From positions 1 through 40,652 of the forward strand of contig JALHUM010000134.1 in NCBI GenBank assembly GCA_022865905.1: a DNA stretch of 40,652 nucleotides. Direction: 5' to 3'. The stretch comes from Anaerolineales bacterium (GTDB lineage Bacteria; Chloroflexota; Anaerolineae; Anaerolineales; Villigracilaceae). This document shows, in pieces, positions 8,778 to 40,652 of the stretch; within the stretch, counting starts at the first letter, position 1, and every line of letters begins with the position of its first letter. The notes below the pieces were generated by a model, which was given only the letters and a program-made list of their open reading frames with translations, was not told the origin of the DNA and ran no database searches. The position numbers and the translations under genes are program-made.

Positions 8778-8869
8778 TTAGAACCTCTAACAAACCTGCT
8801 CCCATCGCCGTCCCCGGCGGCGCCCCACAGGGGTGCTGCGCGAAGGACGCCGCCTTGAGCAAGGTTTTG

Positions 8870-10174
8870 TTAAGAACTCTTAGTTCCCTTGATGCGGGAA
8901 TCTAACTCCTTCTGCGGCACTTTGACGGCAAACACGACGCCGCCAACCAGGAATAGGATGGCCGAAATGATGAAGAGTGCCATGAAAGTCCCTTTGGTCA
9001 GGGTTGTCAGGATAACACCGAAGATCAGCGCGGCGAGGGCGCCGGAAAGGCCGGTCGAAAGGTTATTGTAGGCCATATATTGTCCGGCTTCATCCTTCGG
9101 GGCCAGGTCGCTGGCCAGCGCAGGGACGATCGCAAAGATCGGCCCGGTGGCAGCCGAACGGATAGCGGCCATGATTAGGAAGGTGATGAAGTTGGTGCTC
9201 AAGCCCATCATCAGCGTGGCGGCGGCGCAGACGAACATCGCGCCCAAGATCAGAGAGCGCCGCCCGATCTTGTCTGAAAGCACCCCAGACCCAACGGCTG
9301 CCAGCATGGTCACCAGCAGGCTGATCCCACCCATCGTGCGGAAGGCCGCGTCCGGGCTGATGGAAGGGAAATAAACCTCAAAGAAATAACGGGCGAAGAA
9401 CTGCATGCTGTTGAGGCCCATGTTCGCCAGCAGTGCGGCCAGCACCACCCAGAAGAAGACGGCGACACGCGTGCGCACCCGGAACATATCGCACACGGCT
9501 CGCCCCAGGCTGATCCTGTCCGAGGGATCGGCTGGCGTGTCTTTTCCCCGGATGACCAGCGCATTGAGGATACCGGTCAAGGCAAATATGCCGCCGGTCA
9601 GCCACAGCGCCAGCCCCGTCTGCCCGTTCTGGTTGAGGGCGGTGATGGCGAGGATGCCAACCGCCGCGCCGATCAGGGTCAACAAGCCCTGGATGCCGGA
9701 GGCTGTCCCTCGCTGGTGTTCGGGCACCACATCCACCAGCAGCGGCCACCAGGCACCGTTGCCGACATTGGTGAAGAATTGCATCCCCAGGTAGCTCAGG
9801 ATGATGACCGGCAGCGCCGCAGGCAGGAGGGCCGCTCTCCATGCCGGAGAGAGGATGAGAGCGGGCAGGCCGATGAGCGGCAGGGCAAGCAGCGCGCCGA
9901 TCAGGATGGCCGGGGTGCGCTTGCCCCATTTGCTGGCGGTATGGTCGCTGAGGATGCCCGCCAGGAGGCTGACCACGACGGCGAGAAGTGTCCCAAAGAA
10001 CCCGATCAGGCCAACCACCAGTCCCTTGCTTTCCGTCACCACGTTTTCAACCAGCGTGGGCAGCAGAACGCTATTGTATGACACCCACACAACGTTCGCG
10101 CCCAGCATCAGCAGGCTCATGCCGAACAGGAAACCGATGGAGCGTTTTGCCATAGACACTGGATGAGTCGTCAT
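8870..10174 (-). CDS. MFS transporter, GPH/SLC45-like
   Basis: The 434-residue protein has about twelve hydrophobic segments in two six-helix halves, with loop motifs SDHTASKWGKRTP (helix 2-3) and SDKIGRRS (helix 8-9). The layout resembles the glycoside-pentoside-hexuronide/SLC45 carriers. The ATG at 10174 was chosen over an upstream one at 10432 because MTTHPVSMAKRSIGFLFGMS starts the first helix and AAAGAGGTG precedes it; the extension would translate a repeat-rich spacer. The frame ends with TAA, which shows that TAA is a normal stop in this genome. It is in the cluster of Gfo/Idh/MocA enzymes and peptidase-like hydrolases, so it probably imports their substrate. Confidence 0.85.
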   Translation of the reverse strand: MTTHPVSMAKRSIGFLFGMSLLMLGANVVWVSYNSVLLPTLVENVVTESKGLVVGLIGFFGTLLAVVVSLLAGILSDHTASKWGKRTPAILIGALLALPLIGLPALILSPAWRAALLPAALPVIILSYLGMQFFTNVGNGAWWPLLVDVVPEHQRGTASGIQGLLTLIGAAVGILAITALNQNGQTGLALWLTGGIFALTGILNALVIRGKDTPADPSDRISLGRAVCDMFRVRTRVAVFFWVVLAALLANMGLNSMQFFARYFFEVYFPSISPDAAFRTMGGISLLVTMLAAVGSGVLSDKIGRRSLILGAMFVCAAATLMMGLSTNFITFLIMAAIRSAATGPIFAIVPALASDLAPKDEAGQYMAYNNLSTGLSGALAALIFGVILTTLTKGTFMALFIISAILFLVGGVVFAVKVPQKELDSRIKGTKSS

Positions 10175-16251: not shown

Positions 16252-17646
16252 CTACGACCACCGCCAACTTGTGCCATCCTTGTTATCCTCGATGCCCACA
16301 CCCAGCTCCTTGAGCCGGTCGCGGATCAAATCGGACATCGCCCAAATCTTCTGCTTGCGCATCTCGGTACGGATCTCCACCAGCAAATCCACGAACTTAT
16401 CCGCCTCGCCCGCGCCTTTCTTCTCGGCCAGGCGCAGACCGAGCACGCCGGTCAACGCGCGCAGGGTATCCTGGGCAGGTTTAAGCTCGGTGCCGGTCGC
16501 GCCGTTGTCGCGGGCGGTGTTGATGGTACGGACTAACTCAAAGAGGGCAGCCTGCGACCCGGCGGTGTTGAAATCGTCGTCCATGGCTTCGACGAAGGTC
16601 TGTTGGGCCGTCTCGGCCTGCTTGTCCAGCCAGAGGCGCGTTTCGGGGGGAGCGCCGCGGGCGTCCGTCAAAGCTGGTTTAAGGGCGGCATGCAAACGGT
16701 CCAGGCCGCGTTCCGCCTGTTCGATGATCCCCTCGCTGAAAGATAACGGGGCGCGGTACGAGCCGTTCAACACCATCATACGCAGGGCATCCGCCTCGTG
16801 CTTCGATAGAAGTTCTTCGATGGTCACCAGGTTGCCCAGCGACTTGGACATCTTCTCACCGGCCAGTTGAAGCATACCGTTGTGCAGCCAGTAACGGGCG
16901 AACTGTTTGCCGGTGTAGCTCTCGGATTGGGCGATCTCGTTCTCGTGGTGCGGGAAGATCAGGTCGTTGCCGCCGCCGTGGATGTCAATCTGCTCGCCGA
17001 GGATGTCCAGGTTCATGGCCGAGCACTCGATGTGCCAGCCGGGGCGGCCCTTGCCCCAGGGGCTATCCCAGGCCGGTTCGCCGGGTTTGGCAGCCTTCCA
17101 AAGGGCGAAATCCATCGGGTGTTCCTTCTGCTCGCCGACCTCGACACGCGAGCCAGCCTGCATATCATCCAGCCTGCGGCCGGAGAGTTTGCCGTATTCT
17201 TTGTCTTTGGTGACGCGGAAGTAGACATCCCCAGCCGCGGCGTAGGCGAAGCCCTTAGCGATCAGCCCCTGGATCATGGCCTGGATCTTGTCCATCGTCT
17301 GGGTGGCGCGCGGGTTGGCCGTCGCCGGCAGGATATTCAGGTCGGCGAGATGCCGCCGGAAATCCTGGATGTAGCCTTCGGCCAGTTGGAAGGGGTCCGC
17401 GCCCATCAGGTTGGCGCGGTTGATGATCTTATCGTCCACGTCGGTGTAATTCATAACGTGCCTGACCTGGTAGCCGCGATACTCGAAGTAGCGGCGGATG
17501 ACGTCGAAAACCAGAGCCGACATGGCATGCCCGACATGCGCGTCGCTATAGACCGTCGGGCCGCAGACGTACATTTTGACCACGCCTGGTTCGATGGTCT
17601 GGAATTCTTCTTTCTTGCGGGTGAGGGTATTGTAAACGCGCAACAT
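16252..17646 (-). CDS. cysS: cysteine--tRNA ligase
   Basis: The 464-residue class I synthetase charges tRNA-Cys. It has [18 protein letters not shown] with zinc-ligand Cys28 and the HIGH-equivalent HVGH (37-40), the second zinc region [25 protein letters not shown] and the KMSKS motif in [10 protein letters not shown], followed by the helical DALR-like anticodon region and the C-terminal domain. The ATG at 17646 has an AGGAG site; an upstream start at 17790 would add non-homologous residues across a repeat and a terminator. It lies downstream of the PIN/TRAM gene on the same strand, but a terminator separates them. In many bacteria yacL, ispD, ispF and cysS are neighbours; ispDF is absent here. 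Confidence 0.96.
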
Positions 17647-33633: not shown

Positions 33634-33645
33634 GCGAGGTGTTTC

Positions 33646-33861
33646 ATGCAGAAGAAACTCACCATTACTCTGGATTCTCGGGTTTACGAAGGACTTCATC
33701 GGGTGATCGGGAGGGGGCACATCAGCCAATTTGTCGAGGATCTGGTTCGCCCCCATGTTCTCGGCAAGGATATGGAAGCGGCCTATCGCGCCATGTCACA
33801 AGACGAAGAACGCGAAGCCGAAGCGCTCGAATGGGCAGAAGCGACACTCGGAGATCTTTAA
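33646..33861 (+). CDS. antitoxin of a MazEF-type module (RHH-like)
   Basis: The 71-residue protein begins QKKLTITLDSRVYEGLHRVI and SQFVEDLVRPHVL, a ribbon-helix-helix pattern, and ends with an acidic tail (SQDEEREAEALEWAEATLGD) typical of toxin-binding parts. GAGGTG lies upstream of the ATG. The stop overlaps the toxin start (TAATG), indicating coupled translation. Confidence 0.85.
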   Translation: MQKKLTITLDSRVYEGLHRVIGRGHISQFVEDLVRPHVLGKDMEAAYRAMSQDEEREAEALEWAEATLGDL

Positions 33862-34181
33862 TGAAGCGCGGTGAAGTTTGGTGGGTCAGCTTTGACCCAT
33901 CCATTGGGGGCGAAATCCGAAAACAGCGTCCTGCTGTCATCCTCAGCAATGACGTTTCCAATAAGTATCTGAACCGCGTTCAAGTCGTTCCTATCACAAG
34001 CAAAGTAGAAAAACTTTACCCTAGCGAGGCCTATGTCACCGTAGGGGGAAGGCAGAGCAAGGCCATGACCGATCAACTGGCAACGGTCAGCAAGGAAAGA
34101 ATGGTCAAGCTAATAGGACGCGTCACCGCGGCTGAAATGATGGGAATCGAAAAAGCCCTCCGCATCCAACTCAGCCTTTAA
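33861..34181 (+). CDS. MazF/PemK-family toxin (second module)
   Basis: The 106-residue protein has the complete MazF pattern: KRGEVWWVSFDPSIGGEIRK, QRPAVILSNDVSN, VQVVPITSKVEKLYPSEAYV, and the C-terminal SKAMTDQLATVSKERM and helix. The ATG shares one base with the antitoxin stop; a longer frame upstream lies over the antitoxin gene and is rejected. It cleaves RNA when freed from its antitoxin. It is not closely similar to the 15518-15880 toxin, so the two modules are probably independent acquisitions. Confidence 0.9.
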   Translation: MKRGEVWWVSFDPSIGGEIRKQRPAVILSNDVSNKYLNRVQVVPITSKVEKLYPSEAYVTVGGRQSKAMTDQLATVSKERMVKLIGRVTAAEMMGIEKALRIQLSL

Positions 34182-34219: not shown

Positions 34220-35161
34220 TTGAACCTGCCATCCTCCTTTATCACCACCATCCTCAATACTTATCGCGATGACGGCAAACGCTGGCTGGCGGAATTGCCC
34301 GCGCTGATTGACGAAGCCTCTCGCCGCTGGGGATTGACTGACATCACGCCTGTCGAGAATCTTTCATACAACTTTGTTGCGTATGCAAATCGCCCATCGA
34401 CTGCACTTCGTTCCACTCAGGGCGCAGTGCTCAAGATAGGCGTGCCCAATCCCGAATTGATCAGCGAGATGGCCGCGCTGCGCTGCTTTGATGGCTATGG
34501 CGCCGTGCATTTGCTCGAAGCCGATCCTGAGCGAGGCATGTGCCTGCTGGAACGCTTATATCCAGGCGAAATGCTGGCCGCCCTGGCAGACGATGATCAG
34601 CGCACACACATCGCTGCGGATGTAATGCTCCGCCTGTGGAAGCCTGTCCCCGTAGGGGAACCCGCACCGCAGGGTTTGCCATTCATCAAATTATCAGATT
34701 GGTTTGCCGGATTGGACGGCGTGCGCCCGCACTTCGGCGGCGGGACGGGGCCATTCCCGCAGCGCATCCTCGAAATGGCTGAGGCCCTTATCCCTGAATT
34801 GTTTGCAACCTCGAGTCCACCCCTCCTCATCCACGGCGACCTGCACCACTTCAACATTCTCTCCTCCGGGCGAGGCTGGCTGGCAATTGACCCCAAGGGC
34901 GTCATCGGCCCGCCCGAATACGAGGTCGGGCCGTTACTGATCAATCCCATCCCTGATTTTCTCAGAGGCGAGGCGGCTGTCAGGCAGGCGGAGCGGCGCA
35001 TTGCCATCTTATCCGAGCGGCTTGGATTCGCGCCTCAACGTATCCGCGACTGGGCCATCTGCCACGCAATCCTTTCCGCATGGTGGGACATTGAAGACAG
35101 TGGCGAGGGCAGCGAATATGCGCTTGCCTGTGCAGAGGTTTACGGTCAAGTCAAAGTATAA
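34220..35161 (+). CDS. aminoglycoside/hydroxyurea phosphotransferase family kinase, APH(6)-like
   Basis: The 313-residue protein has the streptomycin 6-kinase family arrangement: LLERLYPGEML in the hinge region, the catalytic loop LIHGDLHHFNILSS with the Asp base, the metal-binding WLAIDPKGVIGPPEYEVG, and the helical C-terminal part. True APH(6) enzymes phosphorylate streptomycin; many chromosomal relatives have unknown substrates, so resistance is only possible. The likely start is TTG at 34220, because no in-frame ATG precedes the conserved part and no ribosome site is obvious. The segment NRPSTALRSTQ (about 34387-34420) looks like a small in-frame repeat insertion; its DNA resembles the TTCGAC..CTCAGG type repeats. 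Confidence 0.85.
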   Translation: MNLPSSFITTILNTYRDDGKRWLAELPALIDEASRRWGLTDITPVENLSYNFVAYANRPSTALRSTQGAVLKIGVPNPELISEMAALRCFDGYGAVHLLEADPERGMCLLERLYPGEMLAALADDDQRTHIAADVMLRLWKPVPVGEPAPQGLPFIKLSDWFAGLDGVRPHFGGGTGPFPQRILEMAEALIPELFATSSPPLLIHGDLHHFNILSSGRGWLAIDPKGVIGPPEYEVGPLLINPIPDFLRGEAAVRQAERRIAILSERLGFAPQRIRDWAICHAILSAWWDIEDSGEGSEYALACAEVYGQVKV

Positions 35162-35540
35162 AGCTTGCAGGGTCCCAAAGACGCTGTTGAAAAAACGTTG
35201 CAGTTCGTTTTAATAATGATTGCATGGATCCTTTTATGCGCGGGGCGCTGGTGCGCAGCGCGGACGCCTTCTTCGCGAACTGTCCGCTCGGCCTTGACCT
35301 CGGAAGGCGGACTTCAGCGGCAGCGGCGGGCTCTCCCTCTCCATTTTCGAAGAAAATGGGGAGGGTGACCGCTGCGTCCCCGTAGGGGGCAGGGCCGGGT
35401 GGGGTCTCCCCATTATCGCGCCATTTCTGGTAAAGCTTGCCCTGAGCTTGTCGAAGGGCGCGCCGGTTTCCGAGCGGCGTAGCCGGCTGCCTGCCCCGGT
35501 TCTATCGGGGGAGCCGGTGTTAGGTTTCTCTTCTAAAGAA
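35162..35540. repeat. gene-free spacer of composite repeats, ending in GTTAGGT
   Basis: No credible gene. It holds an AAAACG/CGTTTT hairpin soon after the kinase stop; a hairpin element at 35332-35408 (CCCTCTCCATTTTC/GAAAATGGGGAGGG, ending GGCCGGGTGGGG) of the family also inserted in the helicase gene; a segment at 35411-35490 sharing CGCGCCGGTTTCCGAGCGGC with the spacer at 38020, but interrupted by a CCCTGAGCTTGTCGAAGGG repeat; and CCCCGGTTCTATCGGGGGAG followed by CCGGTGTTAGGT (35493-35525), shared with 39549-39581. The terminal GTTAGGT is 16 bp from the phosphotriesterase stop. Confidence 0.65.
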
Positions 35541-36464
35541 TCAACGGGCAAAGGCCCGATAGGGATTGGCGTGAGTTAGTTGATTGATCGTTACCTCATC
35601 CACTCCGCAAGCCCGTAGCTTGGGCAGAAATTGCTCTGGAAGATATGTGTATGGTTTGGGAACACCACCACCCGGCAGAGCTGGATCATACCATCCTCGA
35701 TCATGACTCAGCAGCAATTGATCACCCAGACCAGCGTCTAACAAGCGTTGAATGTGGTTCACATGGTACTCATCATTTTCACTGTCGATATTACCAATTG
35801 CGTCATACTCAAGCCAAGCCCCGCGTCGAGCCATCTCCAAGTGTAACTCGAAATCCGGCTCTGCCTGGGTATGGATCCAGATAAATCGTTCTGTAGAATA
35901 ACCCATTGCCTCGATAATATCGAGTTGGTCCCGAACTACCCGGCCTCTAATCGTATGACTGCCTATAACTGCATTCGTTTCTCGACCAGCAGTTGCAGCC
36001 GCCCGTAGGATTTTAGTTTCACAGGCCGTTAACCCGTCATCACCTGCGCTCAACTTAATCCAACCGGCTTGCATCCCGCTTTCTTCAATTTCACCTTGCA
36101 GTTCGCTCAGCATCCACTCGGCCAATTTGGCCTCGCTGGCTGCATGTGCCCAATCCGGAACCCAAGGTTCACGATAAATACCTGTTGGGATCACCAAGGG
36201 TAGATTGGTAGCCTCAGACACAGCTCGATCAATATCAGCCCGACGTCCCACGCCGACTGTACTGCATTCTACAATGGCTGTTACACCGGCTTTTTGTGCC
36301 TTTATTATTTCCGGAGCCATTAGCCGGATCACTTCTTCAACTTCGGCCTGGGCATAGCCAGGAGTGTCCCAAGTCCGAAGATCAACAAAGATGTGTTCAT
36401 GGGGCAAAATCATACCCAATTCGGTGGAACTCTTAAGACCAAGGGTGGTTATAATTCTAACCAT
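35541..36464 (-). CDS. phosphotriesterase-family amidohydrolase (PTE/PLL-like)
   Basis: The 307-residue TIM-barrel metalloenzyme has the binuclear metal set: HEH in LPHEHIFVDLR, the candidate carboxylated Lys in GWIKLSAGDDG, His in VIGSHTIRG, His in IWIHTQAEPD and Asp in LLSHDRGWYDP. A VECSTVGVGRRADID segment is typical of the family. Members act as lactonases, phosphotriesterases or esterases; many are lactonases. The ATG at 36464 follows AAGGAA; the longer frame from 36518 reads into repeat DNA. Codon use is more AT-rich than in the core genes, like the other genes of this repeat-flanked block. Confidence 0.9.
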   Translation of the reverse strand: MVRIITTLGLKSSTELGMILPHEHIFVDLRTWDTPGYAQAEVEEVIRLMAPEIIKAQKAGVTAIVECSTVGVGRRADIDRAVSEATNLPLVIPTGIYREPWVPDWAHAASEAKLAEWMLSELQGEIEESGMQAGWIKLSAGDDGLTACETKILRAAATAGRETNAVIGSHTIRGRVVRDQLDIIEAMGYSTERFIWIHTQAEPDFELHLEMARRGAWLEYDAIGNIDSENDEYHVNHIQRLLDAGLGDQLLLSHDRGWYDPALPGGGVPKPYTYLPEQFLPKLRACGVDEVTINQLTHANPYRAFAR

Positions 36465-36537
36465 AACACTATTCCTTAACAATCTGCTATTTCCAAAGAC
36501 AGGCAAGCAATGTAACAATACGGCGGATGACAGAGAA

Positions 36538-36766
36538 ACCTAACGGATTGGCTTCGCGACATCGTACCCGTAGGGTAAGCACCCCCGAAGCATAGCGTAG
36601 GGGGTTGCGCCTGTCCTGCCTGCGCCAGTGCCGCAGGCACAGGTGAGCGAAGCGAAGGAGCAGCGGTGGGACCGGCAAAGAACGATTGCTCACCCATGAC
36701 CTCGCTGGGGCGGCACGCGTACCCTACGATGCGAAGCACCAGTCAGCTTTCATGCGGGGGTTGGGC
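36538..36766. repeat. composite spacer element bounded by ACCTAAC and GTTGGGC (attC-like ends)
   Basis: The spacer between the phosphotriesterase start and the MBL stop begins with ACCTAACGG (36538). Its first 48 bp are the same as 39403-39450. It ends with GTTGGGC (36760-36766), 17 bp from the MBL stop. The middle contains several GC-rich partial inverted repeats (GCGAAGCGAAGG, GCACC). No gene is seen. Confidence 0.6.
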
Positions 36767-36783
36767 GATAAAAACAGGGGTTG

Positions 36784-37761
36784 TCAATGAGCTTGCTTGC
36801 CTCCGTTTGGCGAACTCATGCGTTCACATAGGAAACGAATATTGGCCTTGTAGAACTGGGGCTGTTGCCAATGTACATACCTCTCAGCGATCTTGAGTTC
36901 TGTAATCTTATCCTCGTAAGCATTTCCTTTATCAACCAGCAATTGCGCTGTATCCAAACAATGCTCGACATACTCAATCAACAACTTGAGATCGTCGACT
37001 CTCCCGACTGGCCCATGTCCTGGTATGAAATAAGTCGCATCGAGCCGGTTCAGCTCTCTCAAGGCTTTCAGAAGTTGAAGCGGATCACCATCTGCAAGGT
37101 AAGGATGGCAACCAACAAACAACAAATCGCTCATGTAGACGATACCTTCTTTCGAAAGATATAGAACCGTGTCGTTTTCTGTATGTGCGCCCTCAAATGT
37201 GATCAGTTCAGATGTGTGCTTAGCGCCATGAATCTCAAGGTGGTTGCTGAAAGTGATGCTTGGCAGACACACTTTCAAATGCGGTAATGCCTCGACTAGG
37301 CCTTCATAGTAGCCAATCCATAATAAGAGTTGCTTCTGTTGTTGCTCATCTTTCGTGTTTTGGTATTGAGCACGAAGAGATTCAAGCCGTTGTGCAGAGT
37401 TTAATGAATACCATCGGAATTCTTCCGCTCCGGCCGTGGCAATCAGAGCGCGAGTACGAGTGCTTGATACAATTTGCGCGTCAAGCGCAAATACCTGGTT
37501 GCCCCAAATATGATCATTGTGATAATGGCTGTTGATTACGAGTCGGGGTGTCCGTTTGAGGATATCAATGGTTATTTGTCGAAGATCTATCGCAGCTTGT
37601 GGTGTCAGGAAGGTATCAAAGACCAGGATTTGTTCACCGAGGTCAATCACGCCCGAGTTGCTGATCGCTGAGCCGCCATCTTCTGCAACTGCAGCGAAAA
37701 TACCCTCGGCTAATTGGTGAAGCACAAAGTGCTTTGATCTAGTAATGAGATTTTTGCGCAT
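36784..37761 (-). CDS. metallo-beta-lactamase-fold hydrolase
   Basis: The 325-residue protein has the MBL signature NSHYHNDHIWGNQVF (HxHxDH), FEGAHTENDTVLYL (third His) and the C-terminal FIPGHGPVG (fourth His), with the N-terminal beta strand GVIDLGEQILVFDTFLTPQA. It belongs to the SoxH/class B beta-lactamase-like hydrolase group; an antibiotic or thioester substrate cannot be distinguished. The ATG at 37761 starts the conserved region; the frame extends upstream into repeat DNA. It has moderate AT content and lies between two repeat spacers. Confidence 0.88.
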   Translation of the reverse strand: MRKNLITRSKHFVLHQLAEGIFAAVAEDGGSAISNSGVIDLGEQILVFDTFLTPQAAIDLRQITIDILKRTPRLVINSHYHNDHIWGNQVFALDAQIVSSTRTRALIATAGAEEFRWYSLNSAQRLESLRAQYQNTKDEQQQKQLLLWIGYYEGLVEALPHLKVCLPSITFSNHLEIHGAKHTSELITFEGAHTENDTVLYLSKEGIVYMSDLLFVGCHPYLADGDPLQLLKALRELNRLDATYFIPGHGPVGRVDDLKLLIEYVEHCLDTAQLLVDKGNAYEDKITELKIAERYVHWQQPQFYKANIRFLCERMSSPNGGKQAH

Positions 37762-37809
37762 TACGGGGTACTCTTTTTGTGGACACCTTTTCGATGACTG
37801 AAGTTCAAA

Positions 37810-38050
37810 GCCCAACGGTTTGCGTTCGCGAAGCACCCCCATAGGGGGCTGCGGCAGCGGCGGAACTGGCGACTAGCCGAGGCTTGGCTGAGGCGGCGTC
37901 AAGCCGCCATCAGCCACTTCGACGCCATGAGGCGTCGAAGGAAGAGCCGCCATCGGCTGTTCCGGCGACATGAGTCGTCGGAGACTACTCCTTCACAATT
38001 ATGGCACATTTCTGGCAAAACGCGCCGGTTTCCGAGCGGCGCAGACGGCT
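37810..38050. repeat. composite hairpin-rich spacer, begins with GCCCAAC
   Basis: The spacer begins with GCCCAACGG (37810) 49 bp upstream of the MBL start. It carries GGCGGC/GCCGCC (37892-37908), a 10-bp stem CTTCGACGCC/GGCGTCGAAG with ATGA loop (37917-37940), and CCGGCGAC/GTCGTCGG, again with ATGA loop (37962-37981). Its right part (37998-38050) shares CGCGCCGGTTTCCGAGCGGC with 35459. No GTTRRRY end and no gene were found up to the MFS stop at 38121. Confidence 0.65.
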
Positions 38051-38120
38051 ATTCTTTCTTGTCTTTTGCCAGTCTCGGCAGGGCGCGTAAGTCGTGAACC
38101 ATGTGCCTGCCTTACACGCT

Positions 38121-39383
38121 CTAAGCCACTGGCGCTTCTGCTGCGGGTCCTTTTTGCGAAGCTTTCCCGGTCAGGTAAGCCAGCACTGCGCCCACCGCGA
38201 ACAGAACGATGTTCAGGATGAAGGGTAGGCCCTTATTGACTCCGGAGAGCGTCCCGGCAATCCAGCCGAACGGCGAAGTGAGCAGAATAATGCCCACATA
38301 CAGGATTGACTGGATGCGGGCGCGCTCCTTTGGGTCAATCGTCAGCACGATCATCTGGTCCACGAGCGGGCTGACAGCGGCAAAGCAACACGCTTCCAGG
38401 AATACGCTGAGGATAAGAAAGAAATAGCCCTGGTCTGGTGCAGTGATCAGCAACAACTGGCTGAGAACAAAGCCGAGAAACCCTAGCATCAGCGGCAGCT
38501 TGAAGTGCATTGTGCTAATGCGCGGCATCACCACGAAAAAGAAAAGCAGCATGATGGCTGATTTGACAAATGGAAAGATAGCCAGATTCTGGGCCGGGAT
38601 GTGCAGCTTCTCGGTCACAATGATTGACCAGAAGCTCCCGCTGATCATTGAGGAAATGCTGAGTACCAGCATTATCCCGGCGGTATAGAGCGTCTGCGGT
38701 GTGTTGAGCAGGGTGCGTAAAACGCCTTTATACTCGCCCAGCACACTAATGACGCTCTGATGGCGCGTCTCATGCAGGCGTACCTGACCCTGCCCGGTCT
38801 CCTGCGTCATCTGGTAGGTGGCTACTGCTTTCAGCGTAAACATGACTGCTGCAAAGATGTATAACCCGCGCATGGTCGGCACGAGCGAAAAAACGCCGAT
38901 CAATGCTCCCGCCAGCGGCGCGATAAAGCCGACCATAATATTGGCAATATAGATCCAGGTGTAAATATCTACCAACTGGCTTTGGTCGGCGTCTTCCACC
39001 AGCAGGCAGGTCCATGAATTATGGACGATACGCCAGACACTGTTGACGATGCCCGCCGCCAGGAAATACCAGAAGTTTTGAGCCAGGGCTGAAATCAGCG
39101 CTGGAACGCTCCATGAAAGAATGTCAAAGATCAGGGTTGTGCGTCTGCGTCCCAGTTTGTCGGTGACCACGCCGCTCAACAGTGCCAGGACGATCTGAAA
39201 GCCCCAACTGATGCTGACAATCAGTCCGATTTGTTTATCAGACAGGCCGAGGGCCAGCATATAAATTGAAACATACGGAGCATACAGGTTGAAAGGGATG
39301 CCCCATAATGGTTCGGTATAGACACAACCGCGCGGGTTCCCGCGCAGGCTTTTCAGGGTAGTGATTAACGAGTGATTATTCAA
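38121..39383 (-). CDS. MFS transporter, efflux type
   Basis: The 420-residue protein has about twelve hydrophobic segments and the helix 2-3 motif GVVTDKLGRRRT. The N-terminal PLWGIPFNLYAPYVSIYMLALGLSDKQIGLIVS is typical of the MFS_1 group. The start is probably TTG at 39383, with AGGAG about 10 nt upstream; the first in-frame ATG is inside helix 1. Neighbouring phosphotriesterase- and MBL-type hydrolases on the same strand are in keeping with export or import of a xenobiotic-like compound, but the repeat spacers argue against a single operon. Confidence 0.87.
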   Translation of the reverse strand: MNNHSLITTLKSLRGNPRGCVYTEPLWGIPFNLYAPYVSIYMLALGLSDKQIGLIVSISWGFQIVLALLSGVVTDKLGRRRTTLIFDILSWSVPALISALAQNFWYFLAAGIVNSVWRIVHNSWTCLLVEDADQSQLVDIYTWIYIANIMVGFIAPLAGALIGVFSLVPTMRGLYIFAAVMFTLKAVATYQMTQETGQGQVRLHETRHQSVISVLGEYKGVLRTLLNTPQTLYTAGIMLVLSISSMISGSFWSIIVTEKLHIPAQNLAIFPFVKSAIMLLFFFVVMPRISTMHFKLPLMLGFLGFVLSQLLLITAPDQGYFFLILSVFLEACCFAAVSPLVDQMIVLTIDPKERARIQSILYVGIILLTSPFGWIAGTLSGVNKGLPFILNIVLFAVGAVLAYLTGKASQKGPAAEAPVA

Positions 39384-39402
39384 GCAGGTAAGCTCCTGGG
39401 CT

Positions 39403-39581
39403 ACCTAACGGATTGGCTTCGCGACATCGTACCCGTAGGGTAAGCACCCCTCGCGAAGCACCCCCGGAGCGCAGCGTAGGGGGCTGCCTTGCGCGCTCGT
39501 GGCCTCAAGCCACAGAGCGCCATGCCGAAGGCGTTGGCCTTCGGCGCTTCCCCGGTTCTTTCGGGGGAGCCGGTGTTGGGC
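39403..39581. repeat. composite spacer element bounded by ACCTAAC and GTTGGGC (attC-like ends)
   Basis: The element starts with ACCTAACGG (39403), 19 bp from the MFS start, and ends with GTTGGGC (39575-39581), 6 bp from the stop of the next gene. The 48-bp start equals that at 36538. Inside are a CGAAGGC/GCCTTCG hairpin and CCCCGG-TTCTTT-CGGGGG, shared with 35493. GGCTTC near the start and GGAGCC near the end can pair, as L''/L' do in attC sites. Confidence 0.65.
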
Positions 39582-39587
39582 GGCGAT

Positions 39588-40460
39588 CTATGATTCAAGA
39601 AGTATTCTTGTTACTGTAATATCTCTTCCTTTTCCAGGGTTTACCAACCGAAAAGAGAAAGGCACATCATCAAGATTGCTTCCACTAAGAGTTATATCAA
39701 CTCGAATTACGCCTGCTCCTAGCTTCAAATCATCATTCTTTAGGAATTTTCCGCCCCTATAACTCTCTAATGAATATGCAAAACAATCTTCATCATCTTT
39801 CTGCTTTATCCCAATGCATAATATTCTTTCGTCTCCATTGGCTGGTATGGTCATCTGGGTAAATTCATAATCTTCTTTCGGAACAGTCAATCTAGAAGGT
39901 TCTCGCCCGGCCCACAATCCTTTAATCTCCTTCCCTAGGATATCGTCGCCTTTGTCATTGTGGTACCTTATTCTGGCAATTACTTCTACCGCATCATGCA
40001 CTTTAGCACGTCTTTCGGGATTGTTCTGGAATTCAACCAAAACATAAGTTTGTTCAGTGATCTCCACATCGCTACTATCGGTGTCCCCATATATTTGGCG
40101 AACTGCTGGCTTATAGTCCATTGCGATCCCTGTGCCGCCCGCATACCTGTCAACGACATCGGCCATACCAGCATGATCGTAGAAGACGAAATCTGTTGTA
40201 GGAACGTTTCTTCTTGGATAAGCTTTTTTCACAACAATATGTGGGCGTGAGTTTAAAAGTTTATTAAGCTCCGCTTGGGGCTTTATTGCCTGAATGACTA
40301 ATAAAACAACAAAGATGCCAAATGAGAATGAAAAACCATTCTCTATGTGAACACCGAGCAAATCTAAAATCAACTCTGCCACCAGTATAAGTATTCCTAG
40401 CAGGCCAATTCCGTAATCGGAAAAGAATCGTCTGATTCTGGCCATATTCATCAATTCCAT
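39588..40460 (-). CDS. unknown protein with two N-terminal membrane helices
   Basis: The 290-residue protein is not recognised. Two hydrophobic helices (about 15-36 and 43-60) are followed by a soluble part of about 220 residues with many predicted strands: TYVLVEFQNNPERRAKVHDA, ARIRYHNDKGD, LTVPKEDYEFTQMTIPANGD and VDITLSGSN. This suggests one or two beta-sandwich-like domains. Alternative starts lie at 40451 and 40445. GC content is lower than in the core genes. It is closely flanked by attC-like elements on both sides (20 and 6 bp), as an integron cassette gene would be. Function unknown. Confidence 0.72.
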   Translation of the reverse strand: MELMNMARIRRFFSDYGIGLLGILILVAELILDLLGVHIENGFSFSFGIFVVLLVIQAIKPQAELNKLLNSRPHIVVKKAYPRRNVPTTDFVFYDHAGMADVVDRYAGGTGIAMDYKPAVRQIYGDTDSSDVEITEQTYVLVEFQNNPERRAKVHDAVEVIARIRYHNDKGDDILGKEIKGLWAGREPSRLTVPKEDYEFTQMTIPANGDERILCIGIKQKDDEDCFAYSLESYRGGKFLKNDDLKLGAGVIRVDITLSGSNLDDVPFSFRLVNPGKGRDITVTRILLES

Positions 40461-40480
40461 CTTCTCTTATTTTAGACGCT

Positions 40481-40537
40481 GCCTAACGTGCAGATCACCG
40501 GCGGCTGTAAGCCGTCCGGTGGATTAGCGGGTTATGG
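40481..40537. other. attC-like recombination site candidate
   Basis: The 57-bp element begins with GCCTAACG (RYYYAAC) and ends with GTTATGG (GTT conserved). Inside, CACCGG-C-GGCT and AGCC-GT-CCGGTG pair around a GTA loop with unpaired bases on the two arms, as the extrahelical bases do in integron attC hairpins. The TAA stop of the gene entering from the right lies inside the terminal repeat. Confidence 0.5.
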
Positions 40538-40652
40538 ATTTAATAATTCTTTAAATCTTGGTGTCCAATATCTACAACGTACAACCCTGTAGCCACCGAA
40601 TTCTGCCCTTGACACTATCAGTTCCGCACCAGTATGTTTCACCAACTCCGCA
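40532..40652 (-). CDS. C-terminal end of a gene entering from the right edge
   Basis: On the minus strand a frame open to the window edge reads about 39 codons, including ELVKHTGAELIVSRAEFGGY and RVVRCRYWTPRFKELLNP, and ends with TAA at 40534-40532. The stop is inside the terminal repeat of the attC-like element, the arrangement usual for integron cassettes. Too little is present for a family call. Confidence 0.5.
   Translation of the reverse strand, partial: AELVKHTGAELIVSRAEFGGYRVVRCRYWTPRFKELLNP

Follow-up and report, generated by a model that had tools for sequence, protein, structure and literature searches.

A probable distal segment of a chromosomal integron with enlarged attC sites in an Anaerolineales bacterium

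Among described systems, the sedentary chromosomal integrons, such as the Vibrio cholerae superintegron with its VCR attC sites, come closest to the locus considered here: same-strand cassettes of mixed function, an attC family largely peculiar to the lineage and an intI gene elsewhere in the genome are found in both. The two differ in the recombination sites themselves, for which a length range of 57–141 bp has been described (PMC5371416); in the present genome they reach ~319 bp and have palindromes inserted inside the L boxes. Chloroflexota are already listed among the phyla with integrons, as presence only (PMC8618304, PMC2426708), and the relatives examined here, from the same or a related phylum, bear intI together with attC arrays whose sites are mostly 126–131 bp long. 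In that literature on Chloroflexota integrons (PMC8618304, PMC2426708) we found no description of an enlarged attC family, and it is this family, rather than the occurrence of integrons in the phylum, that is new.

The array and its cassettes

The stretch of DNA analysed (the window, 40,652 bp) is an entire contig, C58, of a fragmented assembly of 359 contigs with 5.17% contamination; homologues of a helicase encoded in the window mostly share 64–74% identity with it within the same family, which indicates that the contig belongs to the lineage. The cassette array spans 35290–40652 on the minus strand, and its right side is truncated by the contig end (Table 1). A sequence-only reading had proposed an integron-like cassette block at 35519–40652 and had noted the lack of an integrase in the window. 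Both statements held: covariance matches were obtained at two sites, genes alternate with attC sites, and two intI genes sit elsewhere in the genome, on contigs C114 and C29. We consider the segment to be the integrase-far (distal) end of a chromosomal integron array, with a probability of roughly 0.93. The boundary between array and chromosome, placed by eye, lies somewhere near 35290–35525. Adjoining this end on the opposite strand are a PemK/MazF-like gene (33639–34181, +) and a gene for an APH(6)-like kinase (34220–35161, +).

Table 1. Cassette genes and attC sites of the window, from the truncated right side to the distal end
Feature	Coordinates	Strand	Remarks
Cassette gene, 3' end, rest lost at contig end	40532..40652	-	open frame read from sequence; TAA stop overlaps attC 1 R'' box
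attC 1, 57 bp, compact type	40481..40537	-	R'' CCATAAC, R' GTTAGGC
Cassette gene, 290 aa, function not assigned, probably membrane-anchored	39588..40460	-	
attC 2, 179 bp, type B (L box GGCT)	39403..39581	-	model R1 51.9 bits, E 1.3e-11
Cassette gene, MFS transporter	38121..39383	-	PF07690 E 1.7e-23
attC 3, ~319 bp, type-A-like R' (GCAAACCGTTGGGC)	37810..38128	-	model R1 18.6 bits for 37933-37810
Cassette gene, metallo-beta-lactamase-fold hydrolase	36784..37761	-	PF00753 E 5.7e-18
attC 4, 229 bp, apparent hybrid	36538..36766	-	type-A-like 5' half and type-B 3' half, dispersed palindromic repeat inside
Cassette gene, phosphotriesterase family	35541..36464	-	PF02126 E 3.4e-44; likely ATG at 36464
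attC 5, last of array	35290..35525	-	type-B 5' half intact (5' motif match), R' lost

The phosphotriesterase, metallo-beta-lactamase and MFS cassette genes named in the earlier reading are each backed by a Pfam match (Table 1). The phosphotriesterase-family protein scores under the cut-offs of the named NCBIfam PTE models and the metallo-beta-lactamase-fold hydrolase under every NCBIfam beta-lactamase cut-off; the likely start of the latter gene is the ATG at 37761, a longer ORF reaching into the R' box. The 290-aa protein had no match in Pfam, NCBIfam or PADLOC. Further cassettes outside the window encode a SieB superinfection-exclusion protein, an adenine methyltransferase, an aminotransferase and an alcohol dehydrogenase. 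Some cassettes on other contigs (L043:5134-5676; L053:313-1233; L256:1349-1963) resemble phage-related defence genes, namely SieB, adenine methyltransferase and a Mads2-like fragment. Tandem same-strand cassettes with one gene per attC and short gaps between them are found in the window as well as on C214, C346, C73 and C183, and we infer that these array pieces on separate contigs together form one array.

Only attC 1 and attC 2 are good sites within the window, attC 3 and attC 5 being decayed. The bottom strand of attC 1 folds into a strong hairpin (among 300 dinucleotide-shuffled versions of the 5.5-kb region, 2 reached its score), and a TAA stop overlaps the R'' box of the site. Being of a different, short type, attC 1 was not found by covariance model R1 (described below) even with filters off. 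The 5' motif of attC 2, CYAACACCGGCTCCCCCGA, has 10 copies in the genome against 0 for the control. In attC 3 a degenerate R'' box, GGCTTAG, read by eye, overlies the MFS stop, and the internal part of the site is homologous to sites on C183 and C346. The weakest site of the window is attC 4, which is without the L-box register, obtains only 3.4 bits from model R1 with filters off, and seems to be a hybrid between two attC types; its 3' 48 bp are identical to attC 2, and recombination within shared repeats would explain such a hybrid. At the end of the array, attC 5 retains an L' arm, GCCGCTGCCGCTGA, its R' box is not recognisable, and it decays near 35290. An old array end would be in keeping with such decay of attC sites in the distal direction.

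These sites amend the sequence-only reading in two places. It correctly recorded the long 179- and 229-bp spacers and missed that the MFS–metallo-beta-lactamase spacer is itself a degenerate ~319-bp attC (38128–37810); the box it placed past the phosphotriesterase gene is real, and the corresponding attC starts at 35525 and decays near 35290. Its doubt over spacers as long as 179 and 229 bp has for the most part been removed, as attC sites of 150–319 bp characterise this genome and are related to a ~126-bp compact form still present in relatives.

The attC family and its probable enlargement

A general multi-phylum attC alignment (A2) lost register in about half of its rows and was replaced by one of a single spacer geometry (A3). 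The proposed attC structure has 87.5% of its cells paired compared with 72.1 +/- 1.6 in shuffles, and the stem covariation score is 0.394 compared with 0.154 +/- 0.019, comparisons that are not p-values, the alignment rows being related and chosen for L-box pairing at the given geometry. All eight L-helix pairs vary on both sides, and the signal is gone when the partner is slid by 1–3 columns. Model R1, trained on 20 attC sites of relatives and of other contigs of the genome, none of them in the window, recovered attC 2 on the predicted strand over its full box-to-box extent, as well as a second window site ending at 37810. In 234 kb of contigs of the same genome it found ~30 sites at E < ~0.02, some training sites included, on ~14 contigs and on one strand in each. 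C214, C346 and C73 are rich in such sites, and most of the fetched contigs without the motif have none; genome-wide counts given here come from searches of the genome and of the fetched contigs. Long arrays of the same attC family adjoin intI in relatives. Large arrays on single contigs occur in two related genomes (G030:C4:132537-148750 and G036:C28:272821-281612, with 32 and 36 model matches per genome), which are better places to study the integrons of the lineage.

Two attC types coexist, type A (L box GCGT) and type B (L box GGCT), with a shared spacer asymmetry of 3 and 5 nt. Many sites of the genome are 149–319 bp long, others in the same arrays 57–130 bp. Model-matching sites of relatives are near-constant in length, mostly 126–131 bp, as far as can be judged with a model of ~126–131 bp, which favours sites of such length. 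The described range includes attC 1 and is exceeded by attC 2 to attC 4 and by many other sites of the genome. Type B sites conserve an internal core, GCGCG.TTTGCCAGAAATG.GC.ATAAT, which recurs in compact sites of two genomes of the same genus (L298, L299) and, in another family, in an array linked to intI (L301). The type B sites of the present genome carry in addition one block directly after GGCTC (CCCCGATAGAACCGGGG) and another directly before AGCC (GCCCCC..GGGGGTGCTTCGCGA), and half-grown homologues exist, namely L300, where the first kind of block alone is present, and L312, which shows the second. From this series we read the extra blocks as probable stepwise insertions just inside the L boxes; attC length would then have been gained and not lost, because the compact form is the widespread one.

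By the known mechanism of integrons, carried over by homology, the bottom strand of attC would fold to a hairpin that the integron integrase cuts, and circular cassettes would be excised or inserted; the genes for the phosphotriesterase, the metallo-beta-lactamase-fold hydrolase, the MFS transporter and the uncharacterised protein would thus be stored and reshuffled. Many attC sites of the genome would have been enlarged by palindromic repeats seated directly inside the L boxes, while the integrase-binding R and L boxes have remained paired in several copies and decayed in others. On this reading the array would still be active.

Perhaps, however, the long type B sites are dead relics, palindromic insertions having broken recombination and left the array fixed, an explanation that we regard as a real possibility while not favouring it. 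The minimum-energy fold of attC 2 leaves the R and L boxes unclosed (predicted pfold 0.0006), two further long sites, C214_8644 and C73_7650, have predicted pfold values of 0.0003–0.0007, and the hybrid attC 4 with its 48 bases shared with attC 2 would accord with fixation. On the other hand, sites of 318, 210, 164 and 184 bp pair their R and L boxes with a predicted pfold of 0.30–0.64, the 164-bp one, on C214, being a near twin of attC 2 that closes both boxes (0.64), and near-identical attC sites follow different genes. A large variable terminal structure may favour non-recombining folds (PMC5371416), a statement in agreement with the mixed pfold values of the long sites here. The integron reading of the window has its own caveats in that the contig stops short of any integrase, two of the five sites are weak or hybrid, the pfold of attC 2 is low, and the assembly is fragmented and in part contaminated. 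We suggest only tentatively, as a rather doubtful proposal, that in this genus a palindromic micro-element moving into hairpin loops has repeatedly invaded attC sites just inside the integrase-binding boxes, and that the enlarged 160–320-bp sites are still recombination-competent and spread with their cassettes.

Integrases, orphan clusters and chance boxes

The sequence-only reading had named a lack of covariance matches together with a lack of an integrase in the genome as telling against it; two window sites match, and two integron integrase genes are present, one at C114:1316-2278 (TIGR02249, 455 bits) and one at C29:16549-17595 (331 bits), both above the cut-off of 265. In an alignment of ten integrases R156, H286, R289, H312 and Y321 (C29 numbering) are invariant, which we take to be the tyrosine-recombinase catalytic residues. 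Boxes read by eye upstream of both genes, GTTAGGC and GTTAGGT, are candidates for part of an attI site. Divergently from intI, C29 carries the GTTAGGC box, a small gene, a 130-bp attC with 25 arm pairs, a gene that by eye resembles alpha/beta-hydrolases and, where the contig ends, a 165-bp attC; on C114, intI is accompanied by GTTAGGT, an HNH-like gene (by eye) and a further R' box before the contig ends. Matches to intI at E < 1e-60 were obtained in 33 of the 61 genomes searched, the present one counted, and the named IntI relatives belong to Anaerolineales, Thermoflexales, Ardenticatenaceae, Roseiflexus MAGs and other phyla, from which the host is probably a member of the Chloroflexota. The C29 integrase (L041:16549-17595) is a divergent IntI, with 81% identity to that of a Roseiflexus MAG, 62% to G038 and only 42–48% to the rest, a pattern that suggests horizontal transfer. 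A C-terminal intI remnant at 16426–16491 adjoins this gene.

Might the window array be an orphan attC cluster (CALIN), that is, leftover or off-site cassettes, either served in trans or immobile? Taken alone, the window fits the description of a CALIN, since the contig has no integrase and several of its attC sites are degenerate. We think this unlikely nevertheless: the sites beside both intI genes are of the same attC family as those on C214, which bears both of the window types, and C58 simply stops at 40652 before any integrase. Physical linkage of intI with attC sites is seen on C29 and C114. As part of a chromosomal integron array, the window cassettes would presumably be served by one of the two integrases, that of C114 or that of C29.

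The boxes reported earlier are all at their coordinates, with ACCTAAC at 39403 and GCCTAAC at 40481. Bare 7-mer boxes prove little by themselves: RYYYAAC occurs 35 times on the plus strand of the window, 9 times inside the array region, and GTTRRRY 26 times, 5 of them inside it. An extended R' motif, [CG][ACG]AA[AT]CCGTT[AG]G, has 3 occurrences on the array strand and 0 elsewhere in the window, with 0.003 expected per shuffle, its presence there being partly by construction as it was derived from the same window sites; a shorter form of the L'-R' motif clusters elsewhere in the genome (38 matches compared with 8 for the control). A permissive box-plus-arm scan is indecisive alone, chance matches in 40 kb being too numerous, and no Rfam family matched the window at gathering thresholds. 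Chance boxes, with spacers made up only of dispersed palindromic repeats between ordinary genes, are extremely improbable, for although the 7-mers are common and dispersed repeats make up much of the spacer DNA, the covariance matches, the box-to-box ends at gene borders, the single strand per contig and the intI genes of the genome rule such an arrangement out.

Dispersed palindromes and the meaning of enlarged sites

The sequence GGGTGCTTCGCGAAG has 49 copies with at most one mismatch in the genome against 0 for a reversed-pattern control, and many of the copies outside attC sites lie in hairpin loops. For 39 distinct repeat copies, own flanks pair with a mean of 8.52 compared with 6.50 +/- 0.28 for flanks exchanged between copies (7.28 at most in 200 shuffles), the left boundary being free to vary in observed and control cases alike. 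A dispersed repeat of the approximate form GCCCCCTTCGGGGGTGCTTCGCGA occupies loops of hairpins, some of them terminator-like, besides the attC interiors. Examples are found at 8785–8875 of the window (module 8831–8845) and at L268, L269, L281, L288 and L294, and by eye similar loop-seated repeats exist in other genomes (L306, L307, L310). A second dispersed palindrome, CACCTGTGCCTGCGGCACTGGCGCAGGCAGGACAGGC, with ~20 copies, lies at 36620–36680 of the window, inside attC 4, and at L013, L015, L029 and other loci, some copies apparently within coding frames. As for a RAYT origin of the repeat module, genes for Y1 transposases (possible RAYT) are present, most of them have no close module copy alongside, and such an origin is unproven. 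Elements that target attC sites or REP sequences, such as group IIC introns, IS1111-attC and insertion sequences in REP (PMC7923331, PMC8450116), similarly place mobile or repetitive DNA in attC or other palindromes. Here, in contrast, the inserted elements are gene-free palindromes of ~20–60 bp, seated just inside the L boxes and in ordinary hairpin loops.

The default maximum attC length of IntegronFinder is 200 bp. Finders with such a length limit would overlook a good share of the sites considered here, so that counts of the arrays in this lineage are probably too low. A separate lead is offered by the dispersed repeat seated in hairpin loops. The attC family of this genome indicates that an attC can grow to two or three times its length with the R and L boxes still paired in several copies, and the compact, half-grown and full forms in related genomes make the tolerance of the integrase for its hairpin substrate testable.
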